A stretch of 64,000 nt of DNA from Sclerodactyla briareus (Eukaryota; Echinodermata; Holothuroidea; Dendrochirotida; Sclerodactylidae): positions 248,001-312,000 of the forward strand of contig JAODTK010002087.1 in the NCBI GenBank assembly GCA_026419785.1, written 5' to 3'. Below are positions 12,001 through 60,000 of the stretch, piece after piece. A model generated the notes under the pieces. It searched no databases, was not told the DNA's origin, and was given only the letters and a program-made list of their open reading frames with translations. The position numbers were made by a program, and so were the translations under genes. Every line of letters begins with the position of its first letter. The first letter of the stretch is position 1.

Positions 12001-15000
12001 ATCTAAACGGAGGGATTGCTCAATCTGAGCTACGTGCATGTAACTTACTTCCTCGCTGAGTTTTGTTTTGAGCCTTCCCCGCTTCGAAAGATCACTCTAC
12101 GAAGGACCTACTTCAGCAAGCACACAGTGTTTTTATCATTGTTAATATTTTTCTTTGAGACTCAGAACGCTGTTGTTTGTTAACAGCAAATGATCAACGA
12201 TCAACTGAGTCCCACAATTCCCTACTCATTCAAAATCAACTGGGTGTTTCCGATTTTTACTCAAATCTTCTATGATGTTAACGCATGGTTTGATTTCCCA
12301 CAAAAGGTGAGGGAGCATCTGATCACCCAATAATCTCTTTTGTTGCGACTCAACAACACCACACAAACTCCATAATCATCGTTGGTACAATTTGGGGGTC
12401 TTCAGACCATTCCTTCAACGGCCTGGTACCTCTGTTACTGTCTGGAAGGCAAGGACAGTGTTGGATTTTCCCGCAAGAGAGATTTAACAAATCTTTCTTA
12501 CCATGCATCATTTCAATTTTCAGTGCAATCAAACCACCGTCACTAATCAGTGATGAGTGAAAAATTTAGTTCGACGTCAAGAGGCAGGTTTATTTCTGAT
12601 TGTACTCAAATCTGATACTATGATGTTACCCAATGGGTGAGGAATGTCACCCCAATATCATTCCTTTGTTGCGACCTTCACACAAATCCACAACCATTGT
12701 TGGAGTTAAACTTGGGGTGACAGACCATGCACATGTTGGATTTTCCAGAGAGATTTGACAAAATTTTCTGTGCATCATTTCTCCCAACCGTCCAGAATCA
12801 TTTGTGAAAAGTGAAAAATTTGGGCATTGGACAAGTTGGGATGCAAAGCTCAAAGACAATTCCAGCTTTTGTATCAAAATGTATCATGTCACATTACCAT
12901 AACTATCTGTTTAGGCTGTATTTTCTTTTCATAAATACCTTTTTATTGGTTTCCTGCATTCTGATTGGCTAAAATGTTAATTCAAGACCATGTTCAAAGC
13001 CGCCTTTAACCCTCTTCAGACGACATAATGAATTTTGGGAGAATTTATGACTATCTGGATTCTGTTTGTCAGCTAGATACTAAAAAGCCTGGCTTCAAAA
13101 ATAAAGACTAGGCAATTCGCATCTTTTTAAAACTTCAGGTCCAACACACGAATATTACGAAACCTCCCACCTTATCCAGCCGAAGTTACCTGTGTATGTC
13201 TTTGATATCTAACTGAGAAGTTTTCTAGCTGCGAATTGGTGTAACATTGCTAGGTGGTAGGTGGTTTTCTAGATTGGTACTCCAGCCCATGTCAGTTCAA
13301 CTTTCTTCTGGAAGTTAACTGAAGGTTTCATGTGTTCAGCTCTTTGAGCATAAACAGCGTAGAAACTGTTTTGTGTTACTCTATGTGAAATTGAGGGGAA
13401 TTCGGCATTATGATTTTCAGACCTATTAGTACTGATTAATTACAACAGAAAATTAGAAATAAAACCCTTTTTATCTTTCCAGTTTATATTTAGAAATGAA
13501 GTTCAAAGGGTGCCTCAATCTTTTGTGTCCTTTAAGACTTCTGGAAAATTTTCATCGTTGTCTCAAATGCAATAGAAACCTTGAAACCCCCATAATTTAC
13601 CCCCTAACTAGTTCTCACACCACCCCCACCCCCCCCCCCCCCCTCCCCCCCCCCCCCTTCCCCTTCCCCCAAAAAAAAAAAAAAAGCTTGAATACAACAC
13701 TACTAGAACTCCCTTTGATATTTCCCCTTTCTCTAGTATTGAGGGCAAGCTTACATACATCACTACAATAACTAACTTCTAAGAATGTACCCCCTCTTTA
13801 TATTTGGACACTTGAATACAAAGTACATTCATTTACTACCTTTTCAACTGTACCCCTCTTTAGTATTCATGCAAGCCTTGATACATCTGCACAATAACTA
13901 CCTTTGAGGATTACCCTCTGTGTTTTGATGATGTCGTCACTGAGAATTGTGTCTGTTCATGTTTTGCAGTTGTTGGCGGTGGTGGCGGTGGTCGTGTTAG
14001 GGGGCGGGGTCCCTCCGTCTCCCGCAGGCACTCCTGGAAGCCAGTGTCACATGAGGGCAGGTCAGGCTACCATTCAGGTACAGCTCCATCAGAATCGTCC
14101 TGTACCATTGACATCCAGGCTGTCCCCCCTCCATCGACGTCTCACACCCAAAACCAAACTCTTCCCTGAAAACGAAGAGGAACGTAAATCGGTATTACGC
14201 AACATTCCCAATGCAACAAGCGATGCAGCGTTTCGCTCGTTTGTATTATATTCCGTTGAGGCAATATGCCCTCTGAAGCGCGTATACGAATCTTGGATAT
14301 GCGCGTGTAGACATGAAAAAGCTTCACGCAACTTACCATTCACGTTCGAAAAGTACTGCGCAATCGAGCAAGTATTGATTTTTGTGTTACTCTTACTAGC
14401 CTGAACTGTTATTGCAAAAACACTGAATGTTATTGCAAAGTACAGTCGGCTACGTGATGGGGATTAGCCAATCATAATCCTTTATTTGCAATAACGGATA
14501 TCTCAGGTTTGTAGCATCTAGAATATTGCCTTAGTCGAACAGAACGATCCTAATTTTTCACAAGTACCCCTTACATGATATGTTCAGTTTGGTTTGGTGA
14601 GGGATACTTGCCAAACAGGCCACAAGGGTGCAGGTGTGTTCCATTATCTGGAAACAATCGGTAATCGACATGCTGTAAGTAACACAACATCATACCATGT
14701 TCTGTTCTGCGTCTGCAGTAGCTCCCATGCAGGGGGATCAGCCTTCTGTTCCGTATCAAAATGCCTGGCAGTTTCATGAACTGTTTCATTTTCTAGTGTA
14801 ATTACCTGTAGTAAGGGAATTGGTTCATCCTGTGTGGATTTCTCCTGTTTCTGCTGATGTCCTGGCCACCCATTTTGGAGTATCGAGGGACTGTCTACAG
14901 TGGTTCAGGAGCTACCTGTCACACCCTCTATAATCAGTCAGAATTGTGACAAGTTTTCCCCCTAGACCCAAGGTTTCTCAGTACCCCAAGGCAGTGTAGC

Positions 15001-24000: not shown

Positions 24001-27000
24001 CTGTTTGAACGGGTAAATTTCATATATCGCCACTTATGGTGACAGTCAGTTTAGAACGGGTTACAATCAGATATTGACGGTTACCGTGACCTATCTGTTG
24101 GACCGGGGAACACTGGGGACAGACAGTACGCTGGACATGACTGTAGCCCAGCAACATCTAGATATGGACAGTTATCGTTGTCCCTTTCATATTAGTCCAG
24201 GTAACATTCAGGTAGTGATGGTCAATGAGACCTGTCTGTTAGACCAGGTAACATCAAGATATCAATGGTTATCCTGACCTGTCTGTTGCCAAGTTTTTGT
24301 TCTCATATTCCTCATACAGGCAAGGTTATTAATGGTTATCAATGGTGGGAGGGGAGGTGTGGTGGTTATCAATAGTGGGAGTAATGGGGGTTATCAATAG
24401 TGGGAGGGGGTGGGGGTTATCAATGGTGGGAGGGGGTGGGGGTTATCAATGGTGGGAGGGGAGGGGTGGGGGTTATCAATGGTGGGAGGGGGTAGGGGTT
24501 ATCAATGGTGGGAGGGGGTGGGGTTATCAATGGTGGGAGGGGGGGTGGTGGGGGTTATCAATGGTGGGAGGGGTGAGGGTTAACAATGGTAGGAGAGGTG
24601 GGGTTTATAATGATGGGCCCCCCCCGCACGACAAGGAATGGGGGTTATCAATAGTGAGAGGGGAGGAGTGGTGGTATCATTAGTGGGAGGGGAGGGGGTG
24701 GTGGTTGTGGGTCTCAATAGTGGGAGGGGGTGGTGGTTATCATAGTGGGAGGGGTGGGGGGGTTATCAATGGGGTAGGGGTTATCAATGGAGGTGGGGGT
24801 TATCAATGGGGTAGGGGTTATCAATGGTGGGAGGAGAGGGCGGGAGTTACCAATGGTGAGAGGGGAGGGGTGGTGGTTATCAATAGTGAGAGGGGAGGGG
24901 GGGGGGGTTATCAATAGTGGGAGGGGGTGGTGGTTATCAATAGGGGAGGGGGTGGGGGTTATCAATGGTGGGAGGGGGTGGGGGTTATCAATGGTGGGAG
25001 GGGTGGTGGTGGGGGTTATCAATGGTGGGAGGGGGGGGGGGGTTATCAATGGTGGGAGGGGAGGGGTGGGGGTTATCAATGGTGGGAGGGGTGGTGGTGG
25101 GGTTATCAATGGTGGGAGGGGTGGTGGTGGGGGTTATCAATGGTGGGAGGGGAGGGGTGGGGGTTATCAATGGTGAGAGGGGAGGGGTGGGGGTTATTCA
25201 ATGGTGGGAGGGGTGGTGGTGGGGTTATCAATGGTGGGAGGGGGTGGGGTTATCAATGGTGGGAGGGGGTGGGGTGGGGGTTATCAATGGTGAGAGGGGA
25301 GGGGTGGGGGTTATTCAATGGTGGGAGGGGGTGGGGGTTATCAATGGTGGGAGGGGTGGGGGTTATCTAAAAGGAGAAGTAAACTGACACATTCTCCTAG
25401 CTGTCTATCATTTGTTCAATTGTCTGGGAACCCCAGGGGTGATCCTATCAGCTGAGCCGAAGCTGATGGGACAACAATGATACCAAACAACGTAGCAAAC
25501 AGAAAGATAACCGTAGGAGATCAAAATTAGGTATGAGCGTTTCACAATTTAAGGATAAGATAGAATTTCTTCAAATGGGAGAAAAATTGATATACATGAT
25601 CGATACAACATCATGAATCATACAAAGCTCATGAGTGAGCATGAGTAATGTTGTTTACAAAGCTCTCAATAGCATGAGATGATAACAGTTTATACAGAAG
25701 CTCGTGAAATAATCCAACATACAGCAATGGTAATAATAAGTGACAAAATGGCCTATTTACTGCCCATCATCAAGATCATAGCCCTGCAACAATTACACAA
25801 CCACCTTGGTTTAGGCATGATAATTCCCCATTGTGGGTATCACATCTCCTATGGATATAGGGTGAATCTCTGTTGTATCCAAAAAGTTGAGTTTTCTGCA
25901 CTTGTGCTGTGCATGCATGACTGCATGTTAGTCTAAGTGCCATTCAGATTGGATTGGTTATGAAGACCTACCTGTTAGAACGGGTAACATTCAAATATTG
26001 CCGGTTATTGTAACCTGTCTTTTAGACCAAGTAGCATTAAGATGTTGAGGGTTATCATGCCTGCCATGGTTGTCCAGGTGGTAACATTCACATAGTGATT
26101 GTTATCATGACCATCAATAATAATCATTGATCGTTACATCAATGATAACCGTCAATGATGGTTCTCATGACCTGTCTGTTAGTCCAGTAAGATATGATCA
26201 TTATGTATCCCGTAGTTGTCCAGTAACAATAAGATATTGACAGTGACCATAACTTGCCTTTGCTACATTCCTTACAGTCATTGGAATGCCAGTTGAACTG
26301 ACAGATTCCCTAAGCCAATCCAAATGAGCATTTCCGCAGCTGTCACCGTGGTTATGCTTCTCCAGCTAAACATTCCAAGAGGACAGGTAACATGACCTAC
26401 TGTAAGAATGTATAAGTGCCAGCGGGGGTAGGGTTTACAGGCTGTTCAGGGAGAGATATATGGGCGGGGGGGGGGGGGGGGGGGGGGGATCTGAGTAAGA
26501 GATGAACAGCTTCAGTGCTCGAGAGGTCCGTCGTAGGCAGATCAAAGGGTATTTAGGTTTATATTTGGATGGATTCAGTTCAATTTCGATCTGTGTTCTA
26601 GTAGGTAGAGAGCATCGGAGCTCTAGTCTGCAAACAATCATCAAATATAACCTCCGGTATTATTTGTCGGTGCAAGTTGCAAAGGCTGCCAATTAAGTTG
26701 ACTGTTGGCAATGGGTTACCACAAGGTATACACTCACCTGTATTCAGATATGGTATTTGTACTCAATAAATACTTTCCGGCTAAGTCAAGAACTGATGTC
26801 CATTATTTCATTTGTACATTCTGCCCATTCCAGAACTGAAACTGGGTGTTAGGCCGACCAAGGCTGTTTCAAGCAGCCTGCAATATGTGAAATGGAGTTA
26901 TCTATTAGAAGAATGGATGGGATTAGCTGGTGTTGGTGGAGTTTGTAAGCAAATGTTCAACATTATTGAGGGCCTTTATAGAATGCTGATAGAAAGAGGA

Positions 27001-39000: not shown

Positions 39001-42000
39001 GGGACTCATTATAGCTGGAAAGCACATCACTATGAGCGAATCAGTGGCAATAGGATAGCAGCCAACGCCCAACTGACCCCACCTTAACAGGTGGAGCAGG
39101 GTGATTGGATTCCACTGGCAGAAACCAATCCAGAATTGGACCTCGAACTCATTGGCTCAACCAAGCAGATAATGCTGGCTCAGATACTGACAGAGCATGT
39201 AGTACCTGAGAGCGCACTCGGCAGTTCATCTCTCTTCTGGGGAATCTGCAAATCCTTCAACATCTTTTCCGTCTCGTTTCTCACTTGTGCGGGGGGGACC
39301 CCTTTCAGACGAGCAAAGAACCACAGGTGTTCCGCCACGGTCAGGCTACATGAAGCAGAGAAAATGGCACAAAACTGTAGTATTTGTATAGAAATTTCAA
39401 AACTTCATTGTTGTGATGAAAGTAAAAAGTTATTTGGTCATTTCATTGTAATAACTCAACTCTAACAAGAGACGGTCTACTGTGAAATGCCCAGTACTCA
39501 GTGAACCTGTACTAAAACTAGTAAAAAGAAAGACTCAAGGCTAGGATGCTTATAGACCTACCCACATTTTCATTTTTTCTTGACAGTTTTGCCCTTTTTT
39601 CAAACATACTTCAGGCAAGGCAGAAAATAATCACAATGTATGCAGGTAGGGAAAACAACTGCATCATACAGTGCCTATAGAACTATAAATATAAAAAAAA
39701 ATCTATTAGGTGTACTACATAATAATAATTTCAATACACCTTGTACAGAACAACAAATATAACACCTTTCTCAACGATTGAAAGTGTGTGTCTCGAGAAC
39801 AGACTCGTGTTGTTAACTGAGATGACATGGTCTGGCAGACTAGTCCAGAGAGACAGACTCAAGAAGGAAGGGTCAACCGATTCAAGTTATCGAACAGAGG
39901 TAGCATTCTGACATTGTCTGGCAGACTCCAATGCGGGGTCAATCACCCTTACCTACCACAAGACTCCCCCCCCCCATTCCCCTTGGGAGGAAATAGTTGT
40001 AGATTCATCACTTGGATTGGAATTGTTACAACAAAGATTCACCGATAAAACTGCAAATAAGCATTAGGTCGGGATTCACCATTTCCTGAAAGTAGCTATC
40101 GGGGCTGAAATTCCTGGCAGTTATCTATAATTCTCTCGCGCCTGCCAGTCATTTTTCATTAGTTGCAGATGCAATGGTCCAGAACCTGAACCCCCCAGAT
40201 GATACCATGACCCTTTGAAGTGCGAAACAGTGGAGGTCTCGTATGTCTTAACATGAACCTCTCTTACTGGGACCTGACAACTAAGCTCAGTTCATGGACT
40301 GTCAACTGTACAGAAAGCGGGGGGGCTGGCAGAGTCAAGTTCGGCATCCTGTCTGATCATACAAATGCCAATTCACCTCATTATCGAGGGGACAACAAAA
40401 CCGAAACAGAATCAGAACCAAGGACCATTTCTATTGCGAGATAGGTATTGTAATCGAATTCCAGAGGAAGGAAGTACACCATAGACCACTAGCAAAATAG
40501 CAAATCACAGTCATCAGTAGGTATGATTAGGAGGCAGTGCAGCGCATTGCGAGAAAGGCGATTTACAGGGTCATGCTCATGAACAAGCGCCTTACTATAC
40601 ACAGATAGATAAACAAGAAAAGAGAAAACGAAAAAAAAAAAAAGGGAATTACAGGATATAAACCAAACAGGTAGGTCTTAAGGAGAACGTATTAAAGGAT
40701 GTGATAGTCCAGATCACGAATATGCGAGGGGAAGAGTGTTGCAAATGCGTGGGACCTAGAGATTGAAAGAAAAAGATCATCACCAACCTTTCTGTGGGAT
40801 CGAGGAGGAACAAAAAGTCTGTGCGGTCGCAGAGGAACGCAAGCTGTAACGGCTTGGGGGCTGTAAGCCAAAGGCAAACAGAAAGGTACAAGGGGACAGT
40901 ACTTAGTCTGGTGCCATTTATACACAAAGACAAGAATTTGAAACATGATTCTTTCTTTCACAGAGAGCCAGTGGAGTGAACTGGAATGAAATAATTCCCT
41001 AGAGGGGGCGCTCCCAGCCGCACGCAAAAAATTAGGCGGGCAGATTGGTTTTGCAGTCTTGAAGGCGGACAAATATCAGCTGCTGAGCTCAAGCAAAGCG
41101 GGAGTAGTTGGCATAGTTTAGGCGAGAAAAGAAATAATGATACTGAATCCGCACAATGGCAAGCACCTGGGTTGGTAATGAATTGTCGATCGCCACAGAG
41201 TGCGTAGTATGTGGAAATTTTGTTTTGCATAGGTAATCGACATGACTAGACATATCAACCACCTGTCGATACAGAACCCCCAAATCTTATGTTATCGGAC
41301 AATTCAATGTTAGTATTCCCAAGTTTCAGAGAAACATCGGGGACTAATCGCAGGGCAAGGGGGGTACCGAGGATGAAAACTTCCTTTCCCTTGGTTGTCA
41401 ACTTAAGTTTGTTTTTTATCACACCTTTGTTAACCTGACTCGGATACACACTTCCTTAAATCTCACTAGTGCTATTTTCCCGATCATCCTGGAGGTGGGT
41501 CGTCAAACTCAGTATTAGCTGTATATCATCACATACATATGAAAATTAACGTCCATGCTGACGTATAATTCGCTTCCCTGGCGTAGTATAGCATGACAAA
41601 CCCATGGACCTACAATAGATTCCTGGGGCATAGAGTCATCTAGAATATGTGTCTCGATCACTACACCCATTAATGATACCTTTAGTTGATCTGGCATCCA
41701 AGTAAGAATTGAACCAGATGAGGACACCATGTATGTGAAAAAGTGTCAGGCGGTGGATAAAGATTGAAATGGTTGACCAGTGATCAAAAGCTGCAGACAT
41801 GTCCGAAAAAAAGAAAACCAGGAATGCAGCTTTGCCGTTGTCAAGTGACGCAAGATATCGCATTTCATTCCCTTCAAAGTGGCAGTTTCAGTGCTATTAT
41901 TTGTCTTGTAGGCCGATTGCATGTGTTGCGCCAGGTTATTTCTAGTGACATAATCCTTCATTGGGCACTACTGCTCTCTCGATAAGTTTAGAATAAACGG

Positions 42001-45000
42001 TAAATTAGCAACGGGAGGCGGTAGTTGGTGAGATCATTGCGTTCTAAGACCTGCTTCTGTATACAGGGGTTTTTCTGGATTCCTTAAGGCAAGTAGGGAA
42101 ACACCAGACGAGAGGGTGAGATTAATCACCGAGTCAGGACTGGAAGGAGGACTGTTAGGTTTCCTTAATTAACCAGGCAGGCCACGGATCACGTTTGCAC
42201 GACTTGTTAGAGTTGTCATGACAATCTTGCGTACATCAGCACCAGAGGAGTGGTTCGAAGGCTGACTGCAGACTCATCAGACTGACCTAAGGGGGGTGCA
42301 TGAATCAGACTATCATCGTCTGTGAGTTGTCAGCCATCTCAGAGATATGCCTAGCAATTTTAGAAGCAGAAATGTATTCAATAAACTGTCGCAAGAGACT
42401 TATCAGTGATAGAATCGGGTAAAGGCCTACCGTGGGAATTAAGAAGAACTCTTATGGAGTTATACATACCCCTTGCATCTGTATCAGAACATTTGTCATA
42501 CAAATGTGGATTTAAGCGTTCAATATCAAAGACTGTACATGGTCCTTTTGCTGCTGAAGAGTAGTTTATCTTGGTTAGAGTCCACTCTCCTCCACCGCGC
42601 TCAAGCGTCTCGCTCACGACGTTCAAAGCGTGGATCTCCCATATACCAATGGTAGTCTTGGTTTATCACGCGGTCCGAGTTACTAGAGGGCAGGCTTCAG
42701 CCAGATAGATGAAATACGGCCAGGAGGGTTGGGTGTGATGGAATTGATGTCACCTTCCATATTAATGAGGTTCCACATGTCCTGTAGCAGCTCAGCTAGG
42801 ACGTCACGGTCAAGCTTGCGATAGTCCCTTCTGGTAACAGTGATCAAGGCAGGCATGATGTTTGTGGAGGGTCAGTGTAGAGGATACCACGTGAGACCAG
42901 AGTAACAGTAGTGGGGCATGCTGTTTGCCTCTATTACTGGGAATCATCTGGACGGGGAATCACGAGGTCTAGTGTGTGACCTGATTGATGTGTAGTCCAT
43001 CAATTGTTGATGAAGCCAGCCCGTCGAGAATGCCTGGGCTGAACTTTCGACTCTCCGTTTTTTAGTAGTGTTTCCCTTCAATATTTTTTCAAGTTGCGAT
43101 GACCCATGGGCCGCGATACAATTAACATGGGCATTCATTGCACTTTGCATGAGAAGATATACGCCAATGATTTTTCTCTATTCGATGCCTTTCACTACGA
43201 TGTCAGAAACCTTTGTTGAAAATTTACCATCTCTTCTATTTTTCCAAGATGAGGATGATTCATGTGGGCAAGAAAACATATACGTTCCAGATACGCCATT
43301 TTTTAGATGTTTGGGCATCAAGCTTTGACGTTGGCTCAATAAGGAGTAATGCAACAATTCTTCAGAGGGGTGGAGTGAACAATTACGCCTGCATAGAGTA
43401 AAGGAGGTTGACTGACTTACTTGTCAAAGAGGACATTATGTTGAGGGCACATGCCGAGGCTTTTTCCTGATTTCATCAATGTCAGTGAGAATGCTCTTGC
43501 CATAGATGAAAGCATTGCCAGAGGTAGGCGGGAACAGACCAGTCAATATTGACCTGCAGAAAAATAAACAAAACTCAAAATTCTTGCTGTCCAGTTTTGA
43601 GACCTTTGTAATAGCCCACTGTTACCCAGGAAGATAGTGTCATGACCTGATGGTACAAGATAAAACTAAATATGAAAACATAACCCAAAGCATGAGTGAC
43701 TTCTCTAGCTATTGTTGAAATTTGTTTGGATAAGGTGATGCATGTCATCCTAACAGGTCATCTGTGAAAGGCTCATTGGAACCGTTAAATCTGATTCTAT
43801 ATGAGTGAGCATCTCTCTGGAGAACAATGTTATGAGAACCTTCCTAAATTTTACCCCACGCTGATGCACCTCAATTCATAAAGAAATCAAAAACATGCAT
43901 ATCTCCCAAGTACTCACATGGTTGTGAGAAATACTCAAAACAGTACTCACATGGTTGTGAGGAATACTCAACAACAGTACTCACATAGTTGTGAGAAATA
44001 CTCAAAACAGTACTCACATGGTTGTGAGAAATACTCAACAACAGTACTCACATTGTTGTGAGAAATACTCAAAACAGTACTCACATGGTTGTGAGGAATA
44101 CTCAACAACAGTACTCACATGGTTGTAAGGAATACTCAACAACAGTACTCACATAGTTGTGAGAAATACTCAAAACAGTACTCACATGGTTGTGAGAATA
44201 CTCAACACAGTACTCACATAGTTGTGAGAAATAATCGACAACAGTACTCACATTGTTGTGAGAAATACTCAAAACAGTACTCACATGGTTGTGAGAAATA
44301 CTCAACAACAGTACTCACATTGTTGTGAGAAATACTCAACAACAGTACTCACATGGTTGTGAGAAATACTCAAAACAGTACTCACATGGTTGTGAGGAAT
44401 ACCCCACAGCAGTACTCACAGGTTGTGAGAAATACTCAACAACAGTACTCACATTGTTGTGAGGAATACTCGACAACAGTACTCACATTGTTGTAGTTTT
44501 ACCAGCACCGTTGTGTCCCAGGAATGATTTTGTATCTGATTCTCATAGAACTTGAGGTTCAGGCTGTCCACTGCTACTTTCTTGCCTGTCTTGTAGACCT
44601 TGACGAGTCCATGTATTGCCACTCCACACTTCAACTGGGTCGGCTCCTCTTCGAAGTTGGCATTGAGAGCTGACAGAGAAGAAATACCAAATAACATTTG
44701 TTTTAGGTTATTCTGGCACAGTCCCATCTCATTCTCAGACCCATTTGGTAAGAGCAACGTTGACAGAATTATTACCCGTTCCTGAAATGCAACATTGTAG
44801 ACTTCATTGATTCTGTCTCGAAAATTTCTTTATGCAGGAATTTGTGTACACTTTGCTTAAAAAATGTTCCACGCATTGAGCTGTGTTGACCAGAAGTTTC
44901 CTTAGAAGATCACCAACTTCAACAAGGTCATGTACTCCATAACCAAGTGGTTGGCACAATTGTAGAGCGTCTGCCTTCCACCTGGGAGACCGGAGTTCGA

Positions 45001-48000
45001 TTCCGGTCAGGTCATCCAAAGATTTAATAGATGGAACCTGTTGCCTTCCCGCTGGGCGCTCAGCACAAGGATTGGAGCAGGGACATCGAGGGGTAGGCAA
45101 TTTTGCAAGTTGTGAGTGATATAATGGAGTGGAGAGGGGGGCATGAGTAGATGTGTGGACTGCTTGGATTTTACTTACTATCATGTGGATCAAAGCCATA
45201 CTGGTTTAGGTGTCCATGTTGTCTACATTCTTAGATGGCTTGTACCCACACCATAGGAGCGTGTGAAGGGGAAATAGAATGGACGGGGGATGCCATAATG
45301 ACCTGAAAAACTCAATCAACAGTTTGGTATTAGAATTCCTATATTACATGAAACAACTGCTGGATATAACTGCTTTCATGTACCAGCCTGTGTCCAGTGT
45401 ATGAGTTGAGTCTAGCCACATCATCAGGTACTAATGGGACACAATGTGTGTATACTTACCTGGGTGTACTGCTTCAATGTACCAGCCTGTGTCCAGTGTA
45501 TGAGTTGAGTCTAGCCACATCATCAGGCCCTAATGGGACACAATGGGTGTATACTTACCTGGGTGTACTGTTTCAATGTACCAGGTCAGTGTCCAGTGTG
45601 TGAGTGAGTCTCGCCACATCATCAGGCACTAATGGGACACAATGCCAAAACCCCCTGTTATGGCAATTGGAATATAGGCGATGCACTTACCTTTTACCAC
45701 TAACCTGTGCTAGTAACTTAACAGCTCAGAAAACCCATGGAATTGCAAGATTAACGGCTCAAAATCCCATGGAACGTAGCCATATTCCTTTATTTCATTT
45801 TCTCCATGGATTTTGAGTCTTATTTTAACTAGTTCCATGAATCCTTGAGCCGTTAATCTTGCAATTCCATGGGTTTTCTGAGCTGTTATGTTACTAGCAC
45901 AGGTTAGTGGTAAAAGGTGAAGTGCATCTGCGCACTAATTGGGATAACTTACTCTGGGTGTATGTTTCAATGTACCAGGTCAATGTCCAGTATATGAGTG
46001 AGTCTAGCCACATCATCAGGCACTAATGGGAGACAATGGGAGTATACTTTCCTGGTTGTACTGTTTCAATGTACCAGGTCAGTGTCCAGTGTGTGAGTGA
46101 GTCTAGCCACATCATCAGGCACTAATGGGACACAATGGGTGTATACTTACCTGGGTGTACTGTTTCAATGTACCAGGTCAATGTCCAGTATATGAGTGAG
46201 TCTAGCCACATCATCCCAATCACTTGCAGGAAGGTCATGTTGGTGTCTCCGTTTAGCGGGCTGGTACCGATGTTGACCACTGGGCACCCACCCCCTGATT
46301 TCAAAGACCCGCCAGGTACCGCTGCCGTAGGCCAAATGCGATGTGTTCAGTAACGACTGTTAAGACAGAGAGTACAGATAGGAGATTCAGCAGTGCGGGG
46401 TAATGCATTCCATTCAGTGAAGAGTTAATCAGTCACCAGTTATCGTATCAACGGATATTGGCTTATCATTCTAATTTCTGCAAAAATTCAGAATCGCTGA
46501 TATGGCCCATCCATATTCGCTAGCATGATTGATAAAAGCACTATTTTCCTGTATCATGAGCCCAATTGTTCCTACAATAACATTCGTCTGGTTGACTGTA
46601 TACCAAAGTCACTGAAGGGCCTGAGTGATCAAACCATGCCCACCATGTTCTTGTTACTAACATAAATAACATGTCACATTGTTTTGTTATCGCAGATAGA
46701 CTGCCATATCACAGCCCGTTATCAGTTCATATAGCGCACAGCTCAACAGAACAGAAATGAGAAAGAATGAGCTATACTTACCACACTACTTTGGTGACTA
46801 GGGAGAGCTGGTCATCCCTCACATACACCATCACATAGGGTATGTAGGTCAGGAAATAGACAACCGCCCCGCAGGCGGCAGCCAGATTGGCCTTGGAGAA
46901 GAGCACGCTGATCAAGAAGCAGAGCATGATCGTGGACACGCTGAACTACACCAGAAGAAAAGATACTATGGATCGCTGAATACCGTGATCCGGCCAACCT
47001 GGAAGTGTATAGAAACACAACAGAAGATGGTAAGCAAGATAAATCACAGGAGAACAGTCACAAGACCTTAATGCCACCACAAGTTTCAATATTTGTTCTC
47101 CAGAAATTTAAACATCCAGTATTTTGATCCAGTTACAAGTAGAATGTGATCTCATCTCTATGGACAATTGGAAGCATCCAACTATTTTGAAATCGATATA
47201 AATTGGACAAATTGGCAATATAGTAATGAACCACTTTTTTGTGTGATCAGTGGTATTTAGTTTGTTTCAATATCCTGGTTGGAGGGGTTGTGTGAGAGTG
47301 AATTTGCATATTTGCAGATAATAACATCAGGAATCCTAGAAGCATCATAAGGGAAGGCGAGTTTGCCAGCCTCAAGTGTTCGCATGTAAACATAGATCGA
47401 CCTAGTGACCCTGGATTCAACTTTGAACATGGCATGAAGTAGGCAAACAAGACTACTCAATTGGCCTATTTTAAGCTGTGAATAATATATACAGTTCATA
47501 TATTCACACGTCTGCTTGCATTGTGCCAGCCACACACCTAACTGCTACAGAAGCTCAGACAATGAGTTATACAAAAAATTTAGTGTATAATGACTTTCCT
47601 TCCTGAAAGTTACCTAAACGAATTCGACCGAAAAACGGATACCACTTATAGAATTGAATTAAAGAAACACACATAGACACAACCGGTATCGCTAATGTCT
47701 TGCTGAACGTGTTTGGTAAAACAAGGGGATTTTTTTGTTTCAACCACGTATTTCACAGAAAATGGTCTCGTACAACCCCCCCCCCCATTTTTATTTCAAG
47801 GAAAAACAGGTGTTTATGTAATTCAACTGTAATGGTGAGTGTAAGATTCAGGAAACCTACCTATATATAGTGTCCTCCTCCAAGTGACAGGCAGCCAATA
47901 CCTCTGCTAACAATGACAAGAAAAAGAAGGACCAAGTGGCAACCACTCACTTGAAGACGACCCCTAGGAGGCGCTGAGCTGAGAGAATCATGATGGAAAC

Positions 48001-51000
48001 CTTGTCGATGAACACCTAAGCCAGCAATGAACACCGTGCTCCAGACACCATCACCTTCATGTACCTCATTGAGACGACGCTCCTCTCAACCACAATGCTC
48101 TTATGATCATCGCCACACTGCGGAAGACCCAGGCTAACCAGTGATCATGAGGAGGGGGAGATCCCGTCTAATATCAGGAGGAAAGCTTGTAAGAGGCAGG
48201 AAAAAGGAGAAGAAGTTATTAAACAGAGGCTACCTTTTATGATTCCCTCTGCTTTGATAACAACAGGGCAGGGCCATGGTAAGGAGAAAGAATAAAATAA
48301 ATGAATGCACCTGCTGGGGGGGCAGGTCTCACTTCCACCAAGTAGATCATCTGCCCTGCCTAAGACTGGTCCGTATCTACCAACACTTGATATAGCATTG
48401 GCTGGGGTCTCTCTAAAGTAATAATATCTATAATAATATCGTGCGTAGATAGCGCTTGTCAACGTCGACGACTTGCTCAAAGGGCTTTACAGATGTTACC
48501 CCTGATTCCTGATCATTTAGTGACTTGTCACACCCATCTATATAGCACGCACCTCTCGCACCAGCAGCCAAAAATCAACTGGTGCGATGAACGTTAGTTA
48601 GAGTTCGCGCCCACCGAACTTTCCCGATTACTCAGGCTACCGGCACCAATTTTTGATTCTTGCTGCAGAGAGAAGAATCCAACATGCCTCCCTCTGGGAT
48701 TCGAACCACAACCGTTGGGTTCCAAGCATTATCATCAGACCACTAGACCACGTTGGCTCGACATGTCACATGTGAGGTGTCTGTGATATACTCACTTGTC
48801 CTCGATATAGCATGGGTAGGGGAACTGGTGGTACCATAGACCTATCTCATGTGAGGTGTCCGTGATATACTCACTTGTCCTTGATATAGCATGGGTAGGG
48901 GAACTGGTGGTACCATAGGCCTATCTCATGTGAGGTGTCCGTGATATACTCACTTGTCCTCGATATAGCATGGGTAGGGGAACTGGTGGTACCATAGACC
49001 TATCTCATGTGAGGTGTCTGTGATATACTCACTTGTCCTCGATATAGCATGGGTAGGGGAACTGGTGGTACCATAGGCCTATCTCTGTCCTGTTCATCCC
49101 GGTGAGCTCCTGTACGACAGCTGATTCGATCATGTCTTGGATGAGATGAACCCGCTCTGATGTACCTGGAGACTCCCAGCTTTTGCTGCCAGAACCTTCT
49201 GTCGATGAGAGATTACATAGTGGGAGCTCCGAGTGGATTCAAGGAGAATTTAATATGGACGGCACTACCACACAATGAATCTCCACCATATTTCATTGAG
49301 CTTTTTCTGCCCATGCTTTAAACCCTCCACAGAATTTCATTGTTCCATTGCCCTTCTAGCTCTTTTATTGATCATTATTTGTGTAATGATCAAAATGCCA
49401 CAGTTTCAATGTAGGGCAAAGACCAAAAGAGTTTCCTTTACCAGGCACACAAGTTTGTGACTCCTGTTCAAGATCAACAAATGCTATAATCTTTCATGCT
49501 GTTCATCATCAAGTTTGATACTTGTGAAATTGTAGGGGAAAATCATCAGGCAATATAAAAAAAACACACATGTCCATGTTTAGTATTATTTGGAATTACA
49601 TTATTTAATTTTCTGGTTATGTTCCATTGATTTTCCTGATTAGAGTTAATGAACTTTTTACTATTTTCTAACACAGATTCTTATCACTGAATAGACTCTG
49701 ATCATCTGCATTGAAGTGAACATGGACAACCCTTTGTCTCATCAAATTACTAGAATAAACCCTTTGGAAGAGATCATGACAATCAGCTTCCTTCCTTGCC
49801 AGGATTTCCCCCCCCCCCACCGCATGTGTTTGAGTGCCGCCTCTGGAGTAGAGACATCAGAAGTAGATAGGAGCATTCATGCCACTAGGTGACGGTGATG
49901 TGAAGTAGCACTAGAGATAATCAGTGTTCTTGGGAGTGGTTCCTGGGAAAACTGTTGACCCCACCACCTCTGCTTGATGACAGGGAGCATCCATGACACT
50001 AGGTGATGGTGATGCGGACGGAGCACTACGACAGGTGATATGCTCGACTGTGCGTGCATGGCCATTCTGCCTCAGGAGAGAGCATATGCTTTCGCTCATA
50101 TAGAAGGTAATCTTACCGATCCGACAGGCCTTTGCGTTGACTCGACCTGTTTTGGACCATTCTAATCTTGTAATCGATGTACTTAGGACCCCTTCCTCTC
50201 CCTCCCCAGGATGGAAGCTGGTGAAGTTAATAGCTGTCAAAAGAGAGAAATAAGTGCTGATGAAAATAGAATATCTGAATACTTATACAGTAACTTACTT
50301 CGCTCAACATCAAGACATATCCAAAGCCAATGAAGGTGAGAACTAACAAGAGAGAGAGATATTGAAATTAATATCTCAGTGCCTATATAGCGCTTTTCCA
50401 CATCATAGACATGGGTGGAGTCACTGGAGTGTATCACAGTCCTGATAAGGGTGTGTCAACAAGGCTAATTACAGAGAATCATACCTACCTTCTGGGGAAT
50501 AAACGAGTTTGATCGCAAAATATTGTTTATCGGTTAACTAAGATTTTTTTTACCAACAGACTCTGTTTATTTATCAGTCGATGGACAGAGTTTTCAGAGT
50601 TGTATATTACTCAGAACACTGTCATCAGAGAAACCTGTTTAGCGCCGATCTACTGCATTTAATCGACCTCGTTAATGACACTCTTTCGCTGATGAACTTA
50701 GTTTTCCCGACAGCCAAATGTGCCATTACATATTCCCACACCATCACCTGCCCCAGCAACCTATTGACTGTCCGATTACCCTCTGATAGCCCCTAGTCAC
50801 CTGCCCAGATATATTGACTGGGCAGATGCCCTCTGATAGCCCCTAGTCACCTGCCCAGATATATTGACTGGGCAGATGCCCTCTGATAGCCCCTAGTCAC
50901 CTGCCCGATACATTGACTGTGCAGATGCCCTTTGATAGCCCCTAGTCACCTGCCCAGATATATTGACTGGGCAGATGCCCTCTGATAGCCCCTAGTCACC

Positions 51001-54000
51001 TGCCCAATATATTGACTGGGCAGATGCCCTCTGATAGCCCCTAGTCACCTGCCCAGACATATTGACTGGGCCGATGCCCTCTGATAGCCCCTAGTCACCT
51101 GCCCAGTATATTGACTGGGCGGATGCCCTCTGATAGCCCCCAGTCACATGCCTAGTTATATTGACTGGGCAGATGCCCTCTGATAGCCCCCAGTCACATG
51201 CCTAGTTATATTGACTGGGCAGATGCCATTCATAAGGTTCAGTTACCTGCCCAGAAGGTGTTGTTGTCGTTCAGCTCAACTGAAGCATTCAGCAGGTCTG
51301 CCTCTTTACTGTAGCCGATGAACTTGTCCAACTCCACACACTGAAAGGAAATCAAGAGAAGGCAAAGGTGAGCGCTTGCCCAACGAGATTATAACGCCCA
51401 AGCCGTCCATATGGTTGTGAAACATCACTTGTAGAAATGCCTAATATAGCATACGTGGTAGTCAATCAATGAAATAACTGCTCTAGGAACTGGAGGGGTT
51501 CCCAAACAGACTATATTGTCAGGTGGCAATTCCAAAGTAACGAAGCACCACAGGACAAATCGGTTAGCTATCCAGTGAAAGTTGGTAAGTACAATCTAAC
51601 AACACATTAACACATGTGTGTTATAGTGTCTAATATGGTTCAAGTCCTCCTCTTTGTCACCTCTGAAGAATACCCTCCACATACTCTACAAATGCCAATC
51701 CACGAACCCATGGACTCCCTTTCTACTACCAATGTGTCAGCTCTATAGCCTGTGATAAAAGCCAGAAGGAGGAGGAGCCTGATTACTGTCTTGAAAGTCA
51801 TTTCAGAGACTGATCACTGGTAGGTAAAAGCAAGGCATTCATAATAGCTTGGAAGAAACAAGCGCAAGTTGGAACGTCTTGATAGCTGTGTACGGCAATT
51901 TCCTGTGGCGAATACACTCATTGTTTCTTCAACCAATTCCACCTTTATTGTTTTGTTCACATTTAACTGACCTTTCCTGACATCTTCATAACCTTGGAAT
52001 GGCGTCGAACATGTCTACCACATTAGCCCCTAATTTGCTATCAGTGCCCAGCACAAAGTACCCAACTTACCATTCCTAGGTCTGTAATATTAGCTATATT
52101 CCCACAAAACTTTATATGTGTACACCCACTACTACTCCTGGCCTGTGACTGTGGAACTGTGAAAATTCCCCCATTCCTTGTTATTCCAGCCACCCCATGC
52201 TGACAGACAAGGCATGCTCCCCCAATTCCACAGTCATGCCTGCAGCTCTAGGAAATAATGTGGAGGCGAGCCACTGCTCACCGAGTTCAAGTGGGAGTCT
52301 TGTTTGGTAGACAAATTGGGGGTAATTAATTGATGTAATGGATCTAATCCCACTATGCAAACAAAAATTTACTCACCTGCCAGTGCATGCATCATCCCTC
52401 ACCAAGTTTCAACCTGATCGCATGTACGGTTCAGAGTTATCGAATGAACGAACGAACGAACAGAAGAAAGACATGATGAACTTGTAGAGCTGCTTACCCG
52501 CAGCTAAAAAACCCCCAGTGGGAACTTTGGAGGGTTACTGTTTTATTTTCTCCAAGCATTTCGAAACCCGTCATCTGAACCTGTTAGTACTGAATATTGT
52601 ATGTATTTTTTTTGGAATGGTAGCAATTCAGCAGATTCCTATTATTTGCAAATGCCCTTGTCGCTTGCTTCAGTGCCGGTGAGTGTGTCAATGTACAAGA
52701 CATTTCAATTAACCCACCTCCGACAACGACTCACTCCAGCTGTAGATTCGAGTTGTTGATTTGAATTCTACAGGCTCAGAAAGCCCATCAATGCTCATTA
52801 AAGAACCCGCCGTATTGCTTGTTGGATGACAACCGGCAATAACTCGCAGTGGTTCACTCACTAGTGTTCAGATGATATTGAGGCAGGGGTAAACAATCCC
52901 ACCTTCTCCCGACCCGCCACTTCATGTCCCAAGCGGAAAGACATCAATGAACTCCAGGACCTGATCACTCCTCGGAACTTGGACAAGTGTAAATTCTAGC
53001 TCCATGTTACTGCTCACAGCCGACTGCAAGTACACATTAGGAGATGACATCAGGTGTCTGCTGGTATTCGAACCAAAGATGTTTGTCTGCAAAGCATCAC
53101 TGAAACCTCTATACTACAATTCAATCAAACCTTGGTGCTTGATACAATCGGTATCGCATGATACCCTACATCCCTTCCCTTATATGGCAGTAATACCCAC
53201 ACCACCGCCATTGCATTGTTTTTCCCTACATGTCAGTGAATTCCGCCCATTGCCATTGATCATCCCCATAAGGTCAGAAAATTATCGCCATTGCATTGAT
53301 CATTCCCTAAAATGTCAGTAATTACCGCCATTGCATGATCATCCCCTACGATGTCAGTAATTACCCAGCCATTGGGCATTGAACATCATCCCCTATGATG
53401 TCAGTAATTACCGCCATTGCATTGATCAACCCCTATAATGTCAGTAATTACCACCGCCACTGCATTGATCATCCCCTACAATGTCAGTAATTACCGCATT
53501 GCAATTGATGCATCCCCCTAACGATGTCATAATTACCGCCATTGCCTTGCATCCCCATGATGTCAGTATTACCAACCGCCATTGCATTGATCAACCCCTA
53601 TAATGTCAGTAATTACCGCCACGGCATTGATCCATCCCTCAATTCAGAATTACCGCCATTGCCTGATCATCCTCTATAATGTAGTAATTACCCGCCTTGT
53701 ATTGATCATCCCCTACAATGTCAGTAATTACCCCGCCATGCATTGATCACCTCTATAATTGTCAGTATTCCCGCCACTGCCTTGATCATCCCCTACAATG
53801 TCAGTACTTACCACACCATTGCATTGATCATCCCCTACAATGTCAGTAATTACCGTACCCGCCACTGCCTTGTCATCCCCTACAATGTCAGTAATTACCG
53901 CATTGCATTGATCATTCCTCTAAATTCAGTAATACCCGCCATTGCATTGGAATTCATCCTCTAATAATGTCAGTAATTACCCCGCCACTGCGTTGATCAT

Positions 54001-57000
54001 CCCCTACATTCAGTAATTACCCTGCCATTGCATTGATCATCTTCTAATATGTTCATAATTACCGCCATTGCATTGATCAACCCCTATAATGTCAGTAATT
54101 ACCACCCCGCTGTTGCATTGGATCATTCCCTATGTCATTAATTTAACTGCCATTGCCATTGATCATCCCCTATAATTTCAGTAATTACCGACCGCCATTG
54201 CATTGATCATTCCCCTATAATGTCAGTAATTATCGCCATTGCTTGATTCCAACCCCATATGTCGTAATTACACGCCATTCAACATTGATCATCCCACTAT
54301 ATGTCAGTAATTACCGCCATTGCATTTTGGGATCATCCCCTATAATGTCAGTCTTTAAACCGCTATTTGTTCATTGATCAACCCCTATAATGTCAGTAAT
54401 TACCCAACCCCATTGCATTGATCACCCCCTACAATGTCAGTAATTACCAACCATGCATTGATCATCCCCTATAATGTCAAATTACCGCCAATTTGCATTG
54501 ATCATCCCCTATAATGTCAATACTTAACCGCCATTGCATTAAATCACCCCCCATAATGTCTAGTACATTACCCCATTGCATTGAATCATCCCTGTAATGT
54601 CAGTAATTACCGCCATTGCATTAATCATCCCCGATAATGTCGAGTAATTACCGCCATTGCATCGATTATCAATGCACTTGTAGGTGTCCATCTGCTCACA
54701 GCGGTAGTCTCCGTGTCGGTCAAGTTGCTCGTATCCCCAATCCCAAATTGTCATCGAGTATCTCCAACCCGACTGCAAGTTCCTGGGGTAGCAGAAAAAA
54801 AATATGCCAAACAATTGGTTCCCAACCTGCTAGTCCTCGCCTATTTTGCAATAAGAGGTTTTCATATTGTTACAGTATTTATCACCTCGATCCGATGGTT
54901 GGGTATCGATTTTGTTGTGTCAGCTAATAACATGGTTTCTATTATTCACTACCCAAACACCATGGGCTAGTTTCAATCCCGAGCCAATTGTCATGTCAAC
55001 AAACATCACATATTTCCACATAAACAATTAAAATTCCTAAAACAACTGACCAATAAGTTGGGGGTGGGGGGGGGGTGTTTGGGCACCCATCCCCATGTAA
55101 AAGAGAGTAAAGAATAATGTTTATATTATTCTTGAAGTTCTAATCAACCTTATCCAATTGGTTGATCAGGGAGGGTTTGCTTGTCGGCAGCTTATACCAG
55201 CAGTAAAATTGTCACAGGAGCTAGTTTAATTTGTTCCATTCCTCAGTTCCTTATTCTAACAGAAGCTATTAAATGTTGGAATTCAATCAAATTCATACAT
55301 CAAACACATCAGAATTCCAGCGAATTGTTAACGAACCATACCTACTGAGTTTGAATTTGAATAAATTATGCAAATAAAGCACATACAATGACTTCTTCTG
55401 ACCCCAGCTGTACCTTTAATAGCTCAGGAATCAAAGTGGATCGCATCAACCATGTTTTGTGGAAATCCAACAAACTTTCAAAAATTGCATGAATTATTAT
55501 GCAATTAGACACAAAATGACCTCCAGTGACCCCGACTTCACCTTTAAATTTCTCGGGACCATGGCAGACCACTCCCCAAGTTTCCTGAAAATCTGACAAT
55601 TTGCATAAATTAATGCAATTAGACCCCCGTACTTAGCATATTGTTGTAGCTGAAAATCTAATCAAGTTTCATCTACCAGTCATCTAGGTCCTACATGCCA
55701 AACTAATCACTGTAGCAAATACGGTTTCTTGTGTAATCTTGCTAACGGCGAGCTTAACCATAATTTACCGAAAATCAGCTATTACCCCCTCCATTAATGA
55801 CTTGGTTGCTCAAAATCTAATCATCAGATCGTGTACACCCATCCCCGTTGCTACACACAAAAATTTTGTCATAATCGGCCGAAATCGGCCTCACCTTTTG
55901 TAAGAGATTCCTGCTAACAGAGATCGTGTTGACATACACACACACACACACCGCACAACAAACAGCATTTCTTCTGGATTTTGGTGCATACTTGTTTGCA
56001 AATAAGAGGCTATGTTTGAAGAGCTGGTATGAATCCTCTTGCTAATGGGCACTAAACTGAAGAGCATCCCGCATGAATATGCATGACGAGCAATATTTGT
56101 CTTACATTACAAAACACTATTCTTCACAATGTAATGCCACTCAATGCCACCTGTTCTGTAACAATTCCAAATTTTCGCGGTCCTTCATATTCCAGCCACC
56201 GATTCTGACTGGAAGAGGCAGCATCACAGCAATTTTTTTTTTAGGTATACTTATACTCTCCGAGCAAGAATCAAACCTCATTCAAGGCCTATCAAGGATC
56301 AGACCTGAATGCACCTATTGTCAAGCTGCGAATCCTCACCAGCGTACCGGAATCGGCAATGGTAACTCTTTTTGGCAATACCTTAATGTGGAGATGGGGT
56401 AATCACAGGCAGAGGGCAACTTGCAAATTTCCTCCCCTGCAAACCCCTCGTTTGTCCCTGCGCCAATCCTTGTGCTGACGTCCAGCGAGAAGGCACATGG
56501 TTCCATTTTTACATTCTTATGCTATGTACCTCGACCGGGAAATCAAACACTGTTTCTAAAACCGAGTGGAAGGCCAAGACGCACTACCAATGAATGCAAC
56601 CACCGTAACTGCACAATGTTCTCAGAGTTGTAAGCTCAACTCAGTCCATGTGCAATTACAGCTTACAGCAAGATCCTGTCAAGGAGACAGATTTTTCCGG
56701 CTTGCGGGGTACTCGAGAATCCCTTGTTCATGGACAAGTATTCAGCGTTCGAATAGATGGTGTTTGCAATCGTGAAAGGCTCCTCAAATGTCAAGATGCT
56801 ACACACTTTTGGAAGTTCATAGCAGTCAGTTTGTACACAAACTATAGACAGCAACAGGGATTTCTAATCAATTCCTCCCTAAATTGCTACACAAGTGCTT
56901 GGCACTATTTTGAATGCTGAAGGTAGGCTGTCTATACCTTCCCATCAGGGAGCCCAGGTATAGGTTATGTACATTCATTGCTATGGAGGCAATAGATGCC

Positions 57001-60000
57001 CTTGTAGGTACCAGAGTGGGTTGAGGTGTCAAAGCATATATATCTGCACGGGATCCCATTCACTGGTGCCGACATTGGCCTAATTCGAGGTCGCATTGTT
57101 TTGAAGTCCTTTACACTCACATCTCCACACGCCCGCATTGTTAGTACAAAGGGGTAAAGGTGTCCAAAACAAAAAAACTGAAGAAAAAGAGAATCTATCT
57201 ACACAGGACCCATTCACTGGTGGCCTACATTGACCAAATTAAGCCCAAGGTATCTAACTTTGGTTGAATGTACTTACATCTTCACACTGGCCTGCTTGAG
57301 TGAACTTGTTGAGGACTTGCATGAATCGTCGTGAGTAATCCTGCACACATGTAGGCAATGTCGCCAGTAGCTTCAACATAGACTCTAGAGGCTGCTTGGC
57401 CTACAGAGGAAAGCGCAACAGAGATAGTTGAAAAATACTTGAGCCAGGGGACTTGACTAGTTGGGGCGCTCGCATGGATAGCCCACATGTAGGCAATGTT
57501 CTTGGCTGAAAAACATGTTACCTTCAAAGTGCCTATGCATGTTTTGGCTATAACTTCCCAAATTCCTTACATATTGTGAAATTCCAGTCCTCGCAAACCG
57601 TATTCCCTCAATTTTGTTCCCAAACGACATGCTTCCCAAGGCCGGCATACAGCGACTTCAGCAGTTCTCCACAAGACTCCACAATACATTTAAAACTATA
57701 AAGTCCGACGAAATTCCAATTGACTTTAACCCAATTTAACTCAACACCTGAAGCACAGCTTTTCTGGGATTTCAGCTTCAAATCGATCTGGGAAGAAATG
57801 ACTGGAAAGTTTGGACAAGCATATTATGGAATGAACTGAACAAAGATGAACCTCCCTAGTATGGCAATAAACTATCCGGAAATCTGCAATGTCGGTCCAA
57901 AACAATGTCAACCTCAAGAGGAACCTAATAGGTACATCAACAATCGCAAAACAAACGAAAGAAGCCCATCAGAACATGCAACTCATACAATCCAGTGTGT
58001 GAACTCCCCACACCTGGTTAACTCAATTAGAATCTTCCATTCGGTGACGTTGATGTTCTTGTAAAAATGAGAAGCCTAGTACGACATGGATTATTCTTCT
58101 GTCAGATTGAAACCAAGTTAAAACTTTTGGAGTTGTTTGATGAATTTGTCACCCCCACCACTTGTGCAGACCCTGGATAACTACTGCACTTACTGTCCTG
58201 GGAATCCTCCCCAGGTCACAGAATGAGGCAATGCCTTCGCAGTACCTCATGTGGGGGGTGGGATGTGATTACACGTGGACAGCAACACTAAACTGCCTAC
58301 CCCCAGCTGTCCCTTCTGCTCCTATCCCTTGTGGCTGAGCGACCAGCAAGAAGCAACAGATCCCATACCAGTTTTTGGTATGACCCGACCGAGATTCGAA
58401 TCCCATCGTCCGGGTGAAAGCCCAACCTCTACCAATTGTACCAACCACTCGGTAATGATATAATGTAACCTCTGTATTATGAAACTGGCGCACGATGGAT
58501 GATCTAATACTGGACTAAAGTCAATGCCACAAAAATAGAAAGGTAACCTTTGTAGTTTTCACAGCAACAAACGATTAACAGTCAGACATACAACGGACAC
58601 CGATCATGAAGGCAGACAATGTACCTTCTTCTCAATGATTTTCCTTTCTTGTTGCGGGTTTTGTTCAGGGTATAGAGGATTTACCCCTGATTCTTGGCCT
58701 GCATCTCCCACAACACCTCCCCGGTGGAGTGGTTCAGTAGTTGATTCACCCAATCACATTCATCTGAAAGAATGGAAACATATTTCAAATGTTTGAGTTT
58801 ATCATGGTCAGATTCATGGTAATAACAACACCGTGCCCCACACAGCCAACAACTATTGAGATATCCGTGGTCAGGGTTCATAATGTATTAAACTGTGCCC
58901 CTTGTCTAGAATAAATACGGAATAATAAATTTTTGATGCAACTCGCATATTATTAAATCAATAGTATTAATCCAGTCTGTTTTTGTTTTTCCCCCCCCCC
59001 GAGACCAACCTACAGTTACTGTTACTCCAAGGCCCGGCCCCCTGAGCTTACCATATTTCGTTTTTCGGAGCATGGGTCAGTCATTTTTTAGACAAACAAA
59101 CTTTTGCACAGTATTAATTATAACTAAATAAAGTCAAATATCATATTCTCAAGCATGCTATACAACAAAATTTCATCCTGATCAGAGCAAGCTTCTGGAC
59201 TCACAGGGGCCAAAGAGCAATGTAGACAGAGGCAATACCAACTGCTACCCCCCTCATGATGACCTTTCCGTCATTCCTGCTGAGCAATAAGGCAGCATGT
59301 CCTCCATATGACTGACTATAAACCATGCGTTCCCCAGTTTGATTGCAGATGCTCCCTCAAGTGGACAATCTACAGAGGAAAGCTATCATATTATCCACTA
59401 TATCACTATAATATAAACGTTGGAAGCGAAGCATATACCTTTCCACCCTAAACTATAAATGGAGTTGAAGTCACAAATTTTTCGTTTCCAAAATTGGTAT
59501 ACAGAAATACATCCCTTTCTGGACTTGTTTCTTTTCATCTTCGACTTTTTTTCTCTCATGCATAGTGCAAACTAATCAGTGTAAAGTGCAGAGTAATTCT
59601 TGCATTCTTCCAATCTCGTGTATTGTTCAAAACTGTGAAATGTGTTTGTCTGACACCAATAGTTGTCCAACACAGCGGGCCCTTCAGCAGCCATATGAAA
59701 CTCCCTGTATTATAGGTGGTTATACTCCACGGTATACACAAGAGGTTCCACTGAATAACGTTGGGAGCAAAGTACATACATCTGGGAGTTGAAGTCCGCA
59801 TTTTGTTTGCAGATTTGGTATACACGTAATTGGACAACACCATTCCTGGACTCGTTTCCTTTCATTGTCAAATTTTCTGGTGGCATACTATCAGTGTAGT
59901 TGCGAAGTAATGCATCGTTCTTTTTCGATCTCGTGTATACCGTACATACAAGTTCACAACGGTTGGAATGCGTTCTTCCTACCAACACTTGTTCATACAG

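Follow-up and report, generated by a model that had tools for sequence, protein, structure and literature searches.

Tandem repeats copying exon ends and 5' splice sites in an ABCA1/ABCA4-like gene of a holothurian genome

The minus strand of the 64,000-nucleotide stretch of DNA analysed here (the window, C1947:248001–312000) carries an ABCA1/ABCA4-like gene in which tandem repeat arrays run across exon–intron boundaries, each array copying the end of an exon together with its 5' splice site (donor). Four homology-supported donors within the window (44486, 46150, 49032, and 51246) have such arrays. For the whole of this gene (the discovery gene) the total is six homology-supported donors, or seven if the exon end at 54652 is included. 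The exons were placed with a spliced protein-to-genome aligner written for this analysis, using several guide proteins, and the genome searched consisted of 319.5 Mb in 3171 contigs. With the pieced exons as the query, the solved ABCA1 was the top match (E = 5.9e-196) and ABCA4 the second (9e-185). Nucleotide-binding domain 1 (NBD1) matched the Pfam family ABC_tran (1.3e-30) and is of the ABCA type, with a Walker A motif and a signature region. The transmembrane and extracellular pieces before NBD1 occur in the same order as in ABCA1 and were aligned exon by exon to ABCA proteins; a Pfam search with these pieces joined returned no family. The second half of the gene extends beyond the left edge of the window, with the NBD2 exons at about 229–235 kb of C1947, and both halves were located. 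The arrays proposed or detected at donors in the window, and the stretch that splits one of them, are as follows (the slash in a motif marks the exon–intron boundary).

43909–44494, minus strand: 34-bp array of about 17 copies; starts 8 bp within the exon ending at 44487 (the NBD1 Walker A exon) and spans the donor AAT/GTGAGTA
45369–46215, minus strand: 99-bp array in two blocks (45940–46215 and 45369–45644); starts 65 bp within the exon ending at 46151 and spans the donor CCAG/GTAAGT
45645–45939, no strand assigned: stretch splitting the 99-bp array; 87-bp inverted arms (45689–45775 and 45832–45918), 93% complementary
48769–49085, minus strand: 79-bp array of 4 copies; starts 53 bp within the exon ending at 49033 and spans the donor ACAA/GTGAGT
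50779–51265, minus strand: 50-bp array of 9 copies, called at 50779–51227; the unit is a degenerate repeat of CTGGGCAG/GT from the exon ending at 51247
53204–54670, minus strand: array of about 41 bp and about 35 copies; spans the proposed donor 54651 (GGCG/GTAATT), whose exon lacks homolog support
13690–13965, minus strand: degenerate repeat of ~63 bp near the proposed donor 13914; weak, with 64% identity at offsets 126 and 189
57130–57290, minus strand: proposed 155-bp repeat at donor 57277; unsupported

The exon ends at 44487, 46151, 49033, and 51247 were fixed by protein homology, whereas the exon ending at 54652 is an open frame alone, although the array there is certain. Tandem Repeats Finder called units of 34 bp (17.5 copies), 99 bp (two blocks), 79 bp (4 copies), 50 bp (9 copies), and 40 bp (35.5 copies) for the five arrays, and local alignment across the boundary scored higher than all 300 shuffles at 44486, 46150, 49032, 51246, and 54651. 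In a boundary-anchored scan, the same five positions scored 93, 160, 170, 52, and 82, respectively. The two remaining candidates behaved differently. The alignment score at 13914 was matched by one of 300 shuffles and that at 57277 by eight of 300; the anchored scan gave 36 at 13915, a score equalled or exceeded at 26 of 234 positions drawn at random from the sampled gene spans, and 0 at 57278. At score 30, Tandem Repeats Finder reported only units of 1–16 bases around 13914 and no repeat around 57277. For the donor near 13914 itself, two guides gave position 13902 and one gave 13915. An earlier note on this DNA, made from the letters alone, had described seven exons with donor-copying arrays; four of these stand (44486, 46150, 49032, and 51246), the array at 54651 is real but its exon lacks homolog support, the repeat at 13914 is degenerate, and no array is supported at 57277. 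The unit lengths it gave hold for the five arrays, with 33 bp now read as 34 and 46 bp as 40–41. Its statement that the units are unrelated was borne out by an all-against-all comparison of ten units (nine from donors and one from an acceptor), in which there was no cross-match at E 0.05, and so was its core observation that, within one ABCA gene, the ends of exons and their 5' splice sites are copied by independent arrays. The 99-bp array at 46151 is interrupted by an inserted foldback element at 45645–45939.

The ABCA exons placed by homology in the window are the following.

35619–51340, minus strand: first-half exons 51340–51247, 50233–50117, about 49195–49033, about 48185–47951, 46945–46782, and 46356–46151
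Within the same range, minus strand: further first-half exons 45302 to 45252 or 45179, 44669–44487, 43553–43421, 39345–39206, 37461–37324, and 35817–35619
16124–15903 and about 1783–1601, minus strand: second-half exons

Many exons on C1947, including those of the ABCA gene, and on contig C252, which carries a dynein heavy chain gene, are frameshifted, at least one of them at a homopolymer (judged by eye), and we took the frameshifts to be assembly errors. Because exons of several genes carry them, the base accuracy of the assembly must be low; it looks like an assembly of uncorrected long reads, and frame breaks should therefore not be taken as signs of pseudogenes. Pseudogene status was considered for the ABCA gene and rejected, the dynein gene on C252 also having exons broken between frames. 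The same low accuracy, together with an amphioxus globin boundary repeat that was mis-assembled in a genome draft according to an excerpt of PMC3087553, lends some weight to the idea that the arrays themselves are errors of a noisy long-read assembly. However, the copies within arrays have diverged from one another, the unit lengths vary between arrays, one array is split by another element, and a boundary repeat in amphioxus PGBD5 withstood re-examination of the reads (PMC3902484, in the part available), making this the least probable of the accounts considered here.

The earlier note took the DNA to be from Branchiostoma, an origin that was rejected after trees of the dynein heavy chain gene on C252 had been built. 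Under each of four guides (2826–2832 aligned positions), this gene grouped with Apostichopus inside the echinoderms with a support of 1.000, and its identity was 83–85% to Apostichopus and no more than 77% to the other species in the trees, which contained no Branchiostoma sequence. Branchiostoma was also absent among the named entries of the best 120 of 7889 matches to the ABCA query and of the best 120 of 2951 matches to the dynein query, a few matches in each set having no species name. Because of the grouping with Apostichopus, the source is taken as a holothurian. A mitochondrial COX1 search for the species gave no match.

The pattern is not a new kind, because tandem repeats across exon–intron boundaries are known in amphioxus as "mirages", described in excerpts of two papers for Adh3, globins, PGBD5, and troponin C (PMC3087553, PMC3902484). 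The Adh boundary minisatellites that the earlier note mentioned from amphioxus are a real precedent, reached here through the same citing papers. In the parts of these papers available, the mirage of BflGb6 covers the 3' end of an intron and the start of exon 2, and that of BflGb9 the 3' boundary of exon 2 (PMC3087553, PMC3902484). As far as these excerpts go, mirages resemble the arrays reported here in that tandem units span the boundary and the copies carry the splice signal; their units are of 10–160 bp and they lie at either end of an intron. Unlike them, our cases come from a holothurian echinoderm and not a cephalochordate, but taxonomic range is not a structural criterion, and the name is not barred by this alone. 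Our cases also differ in that six homology-supported donors (seven with 54652) are affected in a single gene, in that the sampled cases are mostly at donors, and in that they are known from one assembly. No echinoderm report of boundary-spanning repeats was found among the open-licence papers listed, including PMC11641436, to the extent that the texts were accessible. A second relative is intron gain through tandem duplication of AG/GT proto-splice sites, as outlined in excerpts of PMC3087553, PMC2891723, and PMC4974935, and intron gain from boundary repeats of the present kind is credited, in the literature excerpts, to a proposal by Ebner and colleagues. In the accounts available, that process likewise copies splice signals by tandem duplication; here, in contrast, existing introns are enlarged and no new intron is shown. 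In unit size, copy number, and the drift seen among copies, the arrays match ordinary intronic minisatellites, but they differ in including coding exon ends and donors.

To these cases in the window were added those of further contigs, which had been picked by protein homology without prior sight of their repeats. Outside the window, five automatically mapped donors and one acceptor had boundary duplications, as did one donor placed by hand (on contig C3095). Two of the donors belong to the discovery gene. Copies of a unit of about 72 bp follow the NBD2 exon whose end is at window coordinate -13281; the consensus donor is present in the intronic copies and lacking in the exon-adjacent copy, which may be an assembly error. 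At the exon ending at -15287, three copies were seen by eye. Two ABCA-like genes each have an array across a donor, with a unit of 74 bp on C2410 (at about 145850) and of about 80 bp on C3095 (at about 121702). On C884 lies a second dynein gene with two cases: about 13 copies of a 60-bp unit at the exon that ends in EWTDG and, at another donor, a duplication offset by 169 bp. Donor cases are therefore present in four genes. In a fifth, the dynein gene on C252, the array is on the acceptor side (149-bp unit, about four copies), and none of its 45 mapped donors is a case. Judged by eye, the C2410 and C3095 arrays fall at roughly the same point of the protein, shortly before the NBD2 signature motif, and their units are unrelated; this may reflect shared ancestry or a repeated hit on one intron.

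For the comparison of donors with acceptors, we retained boundaries on which two or more guide proteins agreed and whose exon had a tblastn match of at least 24 bits; the ends dropped by this rule include 54652. Exon ends with two alternative positions were sometimes counted twice, and merging them gives 82 donors and 84 acceptors. The C884 list was set by hand (six donors and five acceptors, to index 10432, with at least four of five guides agreeing), and one array there was already known. The automatic map gave the C3095 donor as 16214, the true donor (16298, score 88) being missing from the map. With C884 added to the other four contigs, 9 of the 84 donors had boundary-crossing duplications, as did 1 of the 93 acceptors (P = 0.007). 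The contrast is weak outside the window, at 5/72 versus 1/76 (P = 0.11), or 6/73 versus 1/76 with the hand-placed C3095 donor (P = 0.06), and outside the discovery gene it falls to 3/64 versus 1/68 (P = 0.35). Within single genes, 6 of the 20 mapped donors of the discovery gene and two of the six of the C884 dynein gene were duplicated.

Tandem arrays are common in this genome (48 of period at least 20 in 294 kb), and six of the 36 arrays in the five gene spans touch a mapped boundary. When these 36 arrays were placed at random and an array was counted if it started 4–100 bp inside an exon, donors were hit 5 times versus 0.96 expected (P = 0.002) and acceptors once versus 0.99 expected (P = 0.63). 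With a tolerance of 60 bp, the counts were four donors and no acceptors versus 0.67 expected for each (donor P = 0.006), and with 200 bp they were 5 versus 1.69 for donors (P = 0.019) and 1 versus 1.75 for acceptors; an earlier run at 200 bp had given 5 donors versus 1.71 expected (P = 0.02). Without the discovery gene, 17 arrays remained, with two donor hits versus 0.61 expected at 100 bp (P = 0.13) and one acceptor hit versus 0.61. On the earlier note's claim that chance placement is implausible, the pooled data agree, and those without the discovery gene are weak. That the bias is chance, with ordinary minisatellites touching exon ends at the expected rate, would suit these reduced samples, but it sits poorly with the pooled P values of 0.007 and 0.002, both of which include the discovery gene, and we regard it as improbable.

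The counts bear equally on the idea that duplication occurs preferentially at 5' splice sites, for example through R-loops, transcription-linked breaks, or repair near exon ends, which would make donors hot spots for the birth of arrays. The start of arrays just inside exons at donors and not at acceptors, the 9/84 versus 1/93 contrast, and the high fractions in the discovery gene and the C884 gene all point this way. Yet the signal comes largely from the gene picked for it, and random positions in gene spans were duplicated as often as donors: at a score of at least 30 in four contigs, the anchored scan found duplications at 7 of 78 donors, 1 of 88 acceptors, and 28 of 234 random positions. 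Motif scores in array units reached P ≤ 0.05 against shuffles in 7 of 48 arrays for donors and 1 of 48 for acceptors, a set that includes the discovery gene. Short-spaced pairs of donor-like octamers, counted without annotation at 30–60 bases, exceeded a hand estimate from their frequency, but so did pairs of the reversed-letter controls (107 for AGGTGAGT versus 75 reversed, and 28 for AGGTAAGT versus 153); the acceptor-like TTTGCAGG gave 24 versus 18 reversed, and the scrambled TAGGAAGT gave 8 versus 39. Because the reversed-letter controls also give pairs, this test fails to single out donors. All 28 places of the AGGTAAGT pair pattern are on contigs numbered 1986 and above, and that count may therefore be partial. 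Preferential duplication at donors is possible but rather unlikely. The broader proposal, that holothurian genomes have a duplication process directed to 5' splice sites that seeds arrays independently in many genes, and far more often than at acceptors, we consider unlikely. The process acting at 5' splice sites that the earlier note suggested draws support from the pooled contrast, but the contrast is weak outside the window, and the dynein gene on C252 has an acceptor-side array. The donor bias is suggestive, not proven, and rests mainly on one gene, since P rises to 0.11 outside the window and to 0.35 outside the discovery gene.

The copied donors themselves were examined for reading frame and for conservation. 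When the longest upstream open frame was read past the first donor, a stop occurred within 1–89 bases in all eight arrays, and it preceded the donor of the next copy in six of the eight; in the array at 44487 it did so in the homology frame only (GKTTTM, then stop). Given these stops, only the first donor is likely to give an open product in most cases. The GT was kept in 87 of 102 intronic copies of nine arrays, and in the array at 54652 the donor window ranked first in conservation among a few windows (z = 3.7, rank P = 0.17), as might be expected if the extra donors were useful, through redundant U1 binding, stronger intron definition, or protection from early polyadenylation, and were kept by selection. 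However, the copied donor 9-mer was conserved no differently from other windows of the unit (nine arrays, combined P = 0.79), and there is no detectable selection on the copied donors. A first comparison had suggested such selection, but it counted unaligned unit ends as mismatches, and no selection was seen once this had been controlled for. Drift in the copied donors resembles that in the rest of the unit, and tolerance therefore fits better than function; usefulness of the copies seems very improbable.

The explanation we favour, to which we give slightly better than even credence, is that the arrays are products of ordinary tandem duplication, tolerated at donors through use of the first donor, and that duplications at acceptors are filtered out by selection. 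Minisatellites, in which the genes of this genome are rich, would arise by slippage or unequal exchange. Where the duplicated stretch happened to include the end of an exon with its 5' splice site, the copies would fall within the intron, the exon-proximal donor would be used, and the mRNA would be unchanged, leaving the array free to expand and diverge. At a 3' splice site, the corresponding event would place an extra acceptor upstream of the true one, where it would be likelier to be used, and would be selected against. The duplication mechanism, the use of the first donor, and the selection against acceptor copies are what we infer from the patterns above. Such a splicing filter fits because the rate of copying at donors is close to that at random positions in the gene spans, and acceptors are spared.

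Several observations weigh against this explanation. Random placement of whole arrays shows a donor excess with no depletion at acceptors, which favours something extra at donors; this null and that of random positions disagree, and the sample is small. In the scan at a score of at least 30, decoys away from mapped boundaries were duplicated more often than the true sites, both for donors (37/139) and for acceptors (9/119). The C252 dynein gene has an acceptor array of about four copies, and an acceptor-side case also occurs in amphioxus BflGb6. In the 54652 array, the donor of the next copy comes before any stop, and indels in the assembly can shift the frames on which the whole stop test relies. 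For short units, the conservation test could draw on few windows, and its anchor at -13281 lies about 4 bases off the consensus donor of the copies. A splicing filter and a donor-directed excess are both possible, and the filter is favoured; selection on splice-site choice can itself produce a donor bias.

If boundary arrays do recur outside lancelets, they constitute a natural experiment on splice-site choice, in which the true donor competes in cis with near-copies of itself, as many as dozens of them. A donor–acceptor asymmetry, if firm, would distinguish splicing selection from a mutational hot spot at exon ends in the growth of introns, and it also bears on the proposal that new introns come from such duplications. 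Donor-directed duplication, if true, would continually supply decoy donors as well as raw material from which new introns and exons could form.

Three further repeats were noted in passing. A long G-rich minisatellite of the GGTTATCAATGGTGGGAGG type occupies 24334–25361 of the window, with no mapped exon nearby. A 44-bp intronic array at window coordinates -701 to -228 of C1947 carries a donor-like AG/GTGAGTC on the strand opposite the gene. At C77:209316–211086, there is an array of roughly 66 bp whose unit, translated by eye, reads LIMAFGWVYVLVDSKK before AAG/GTGAGT, and it looks like another donor array at an exon end.

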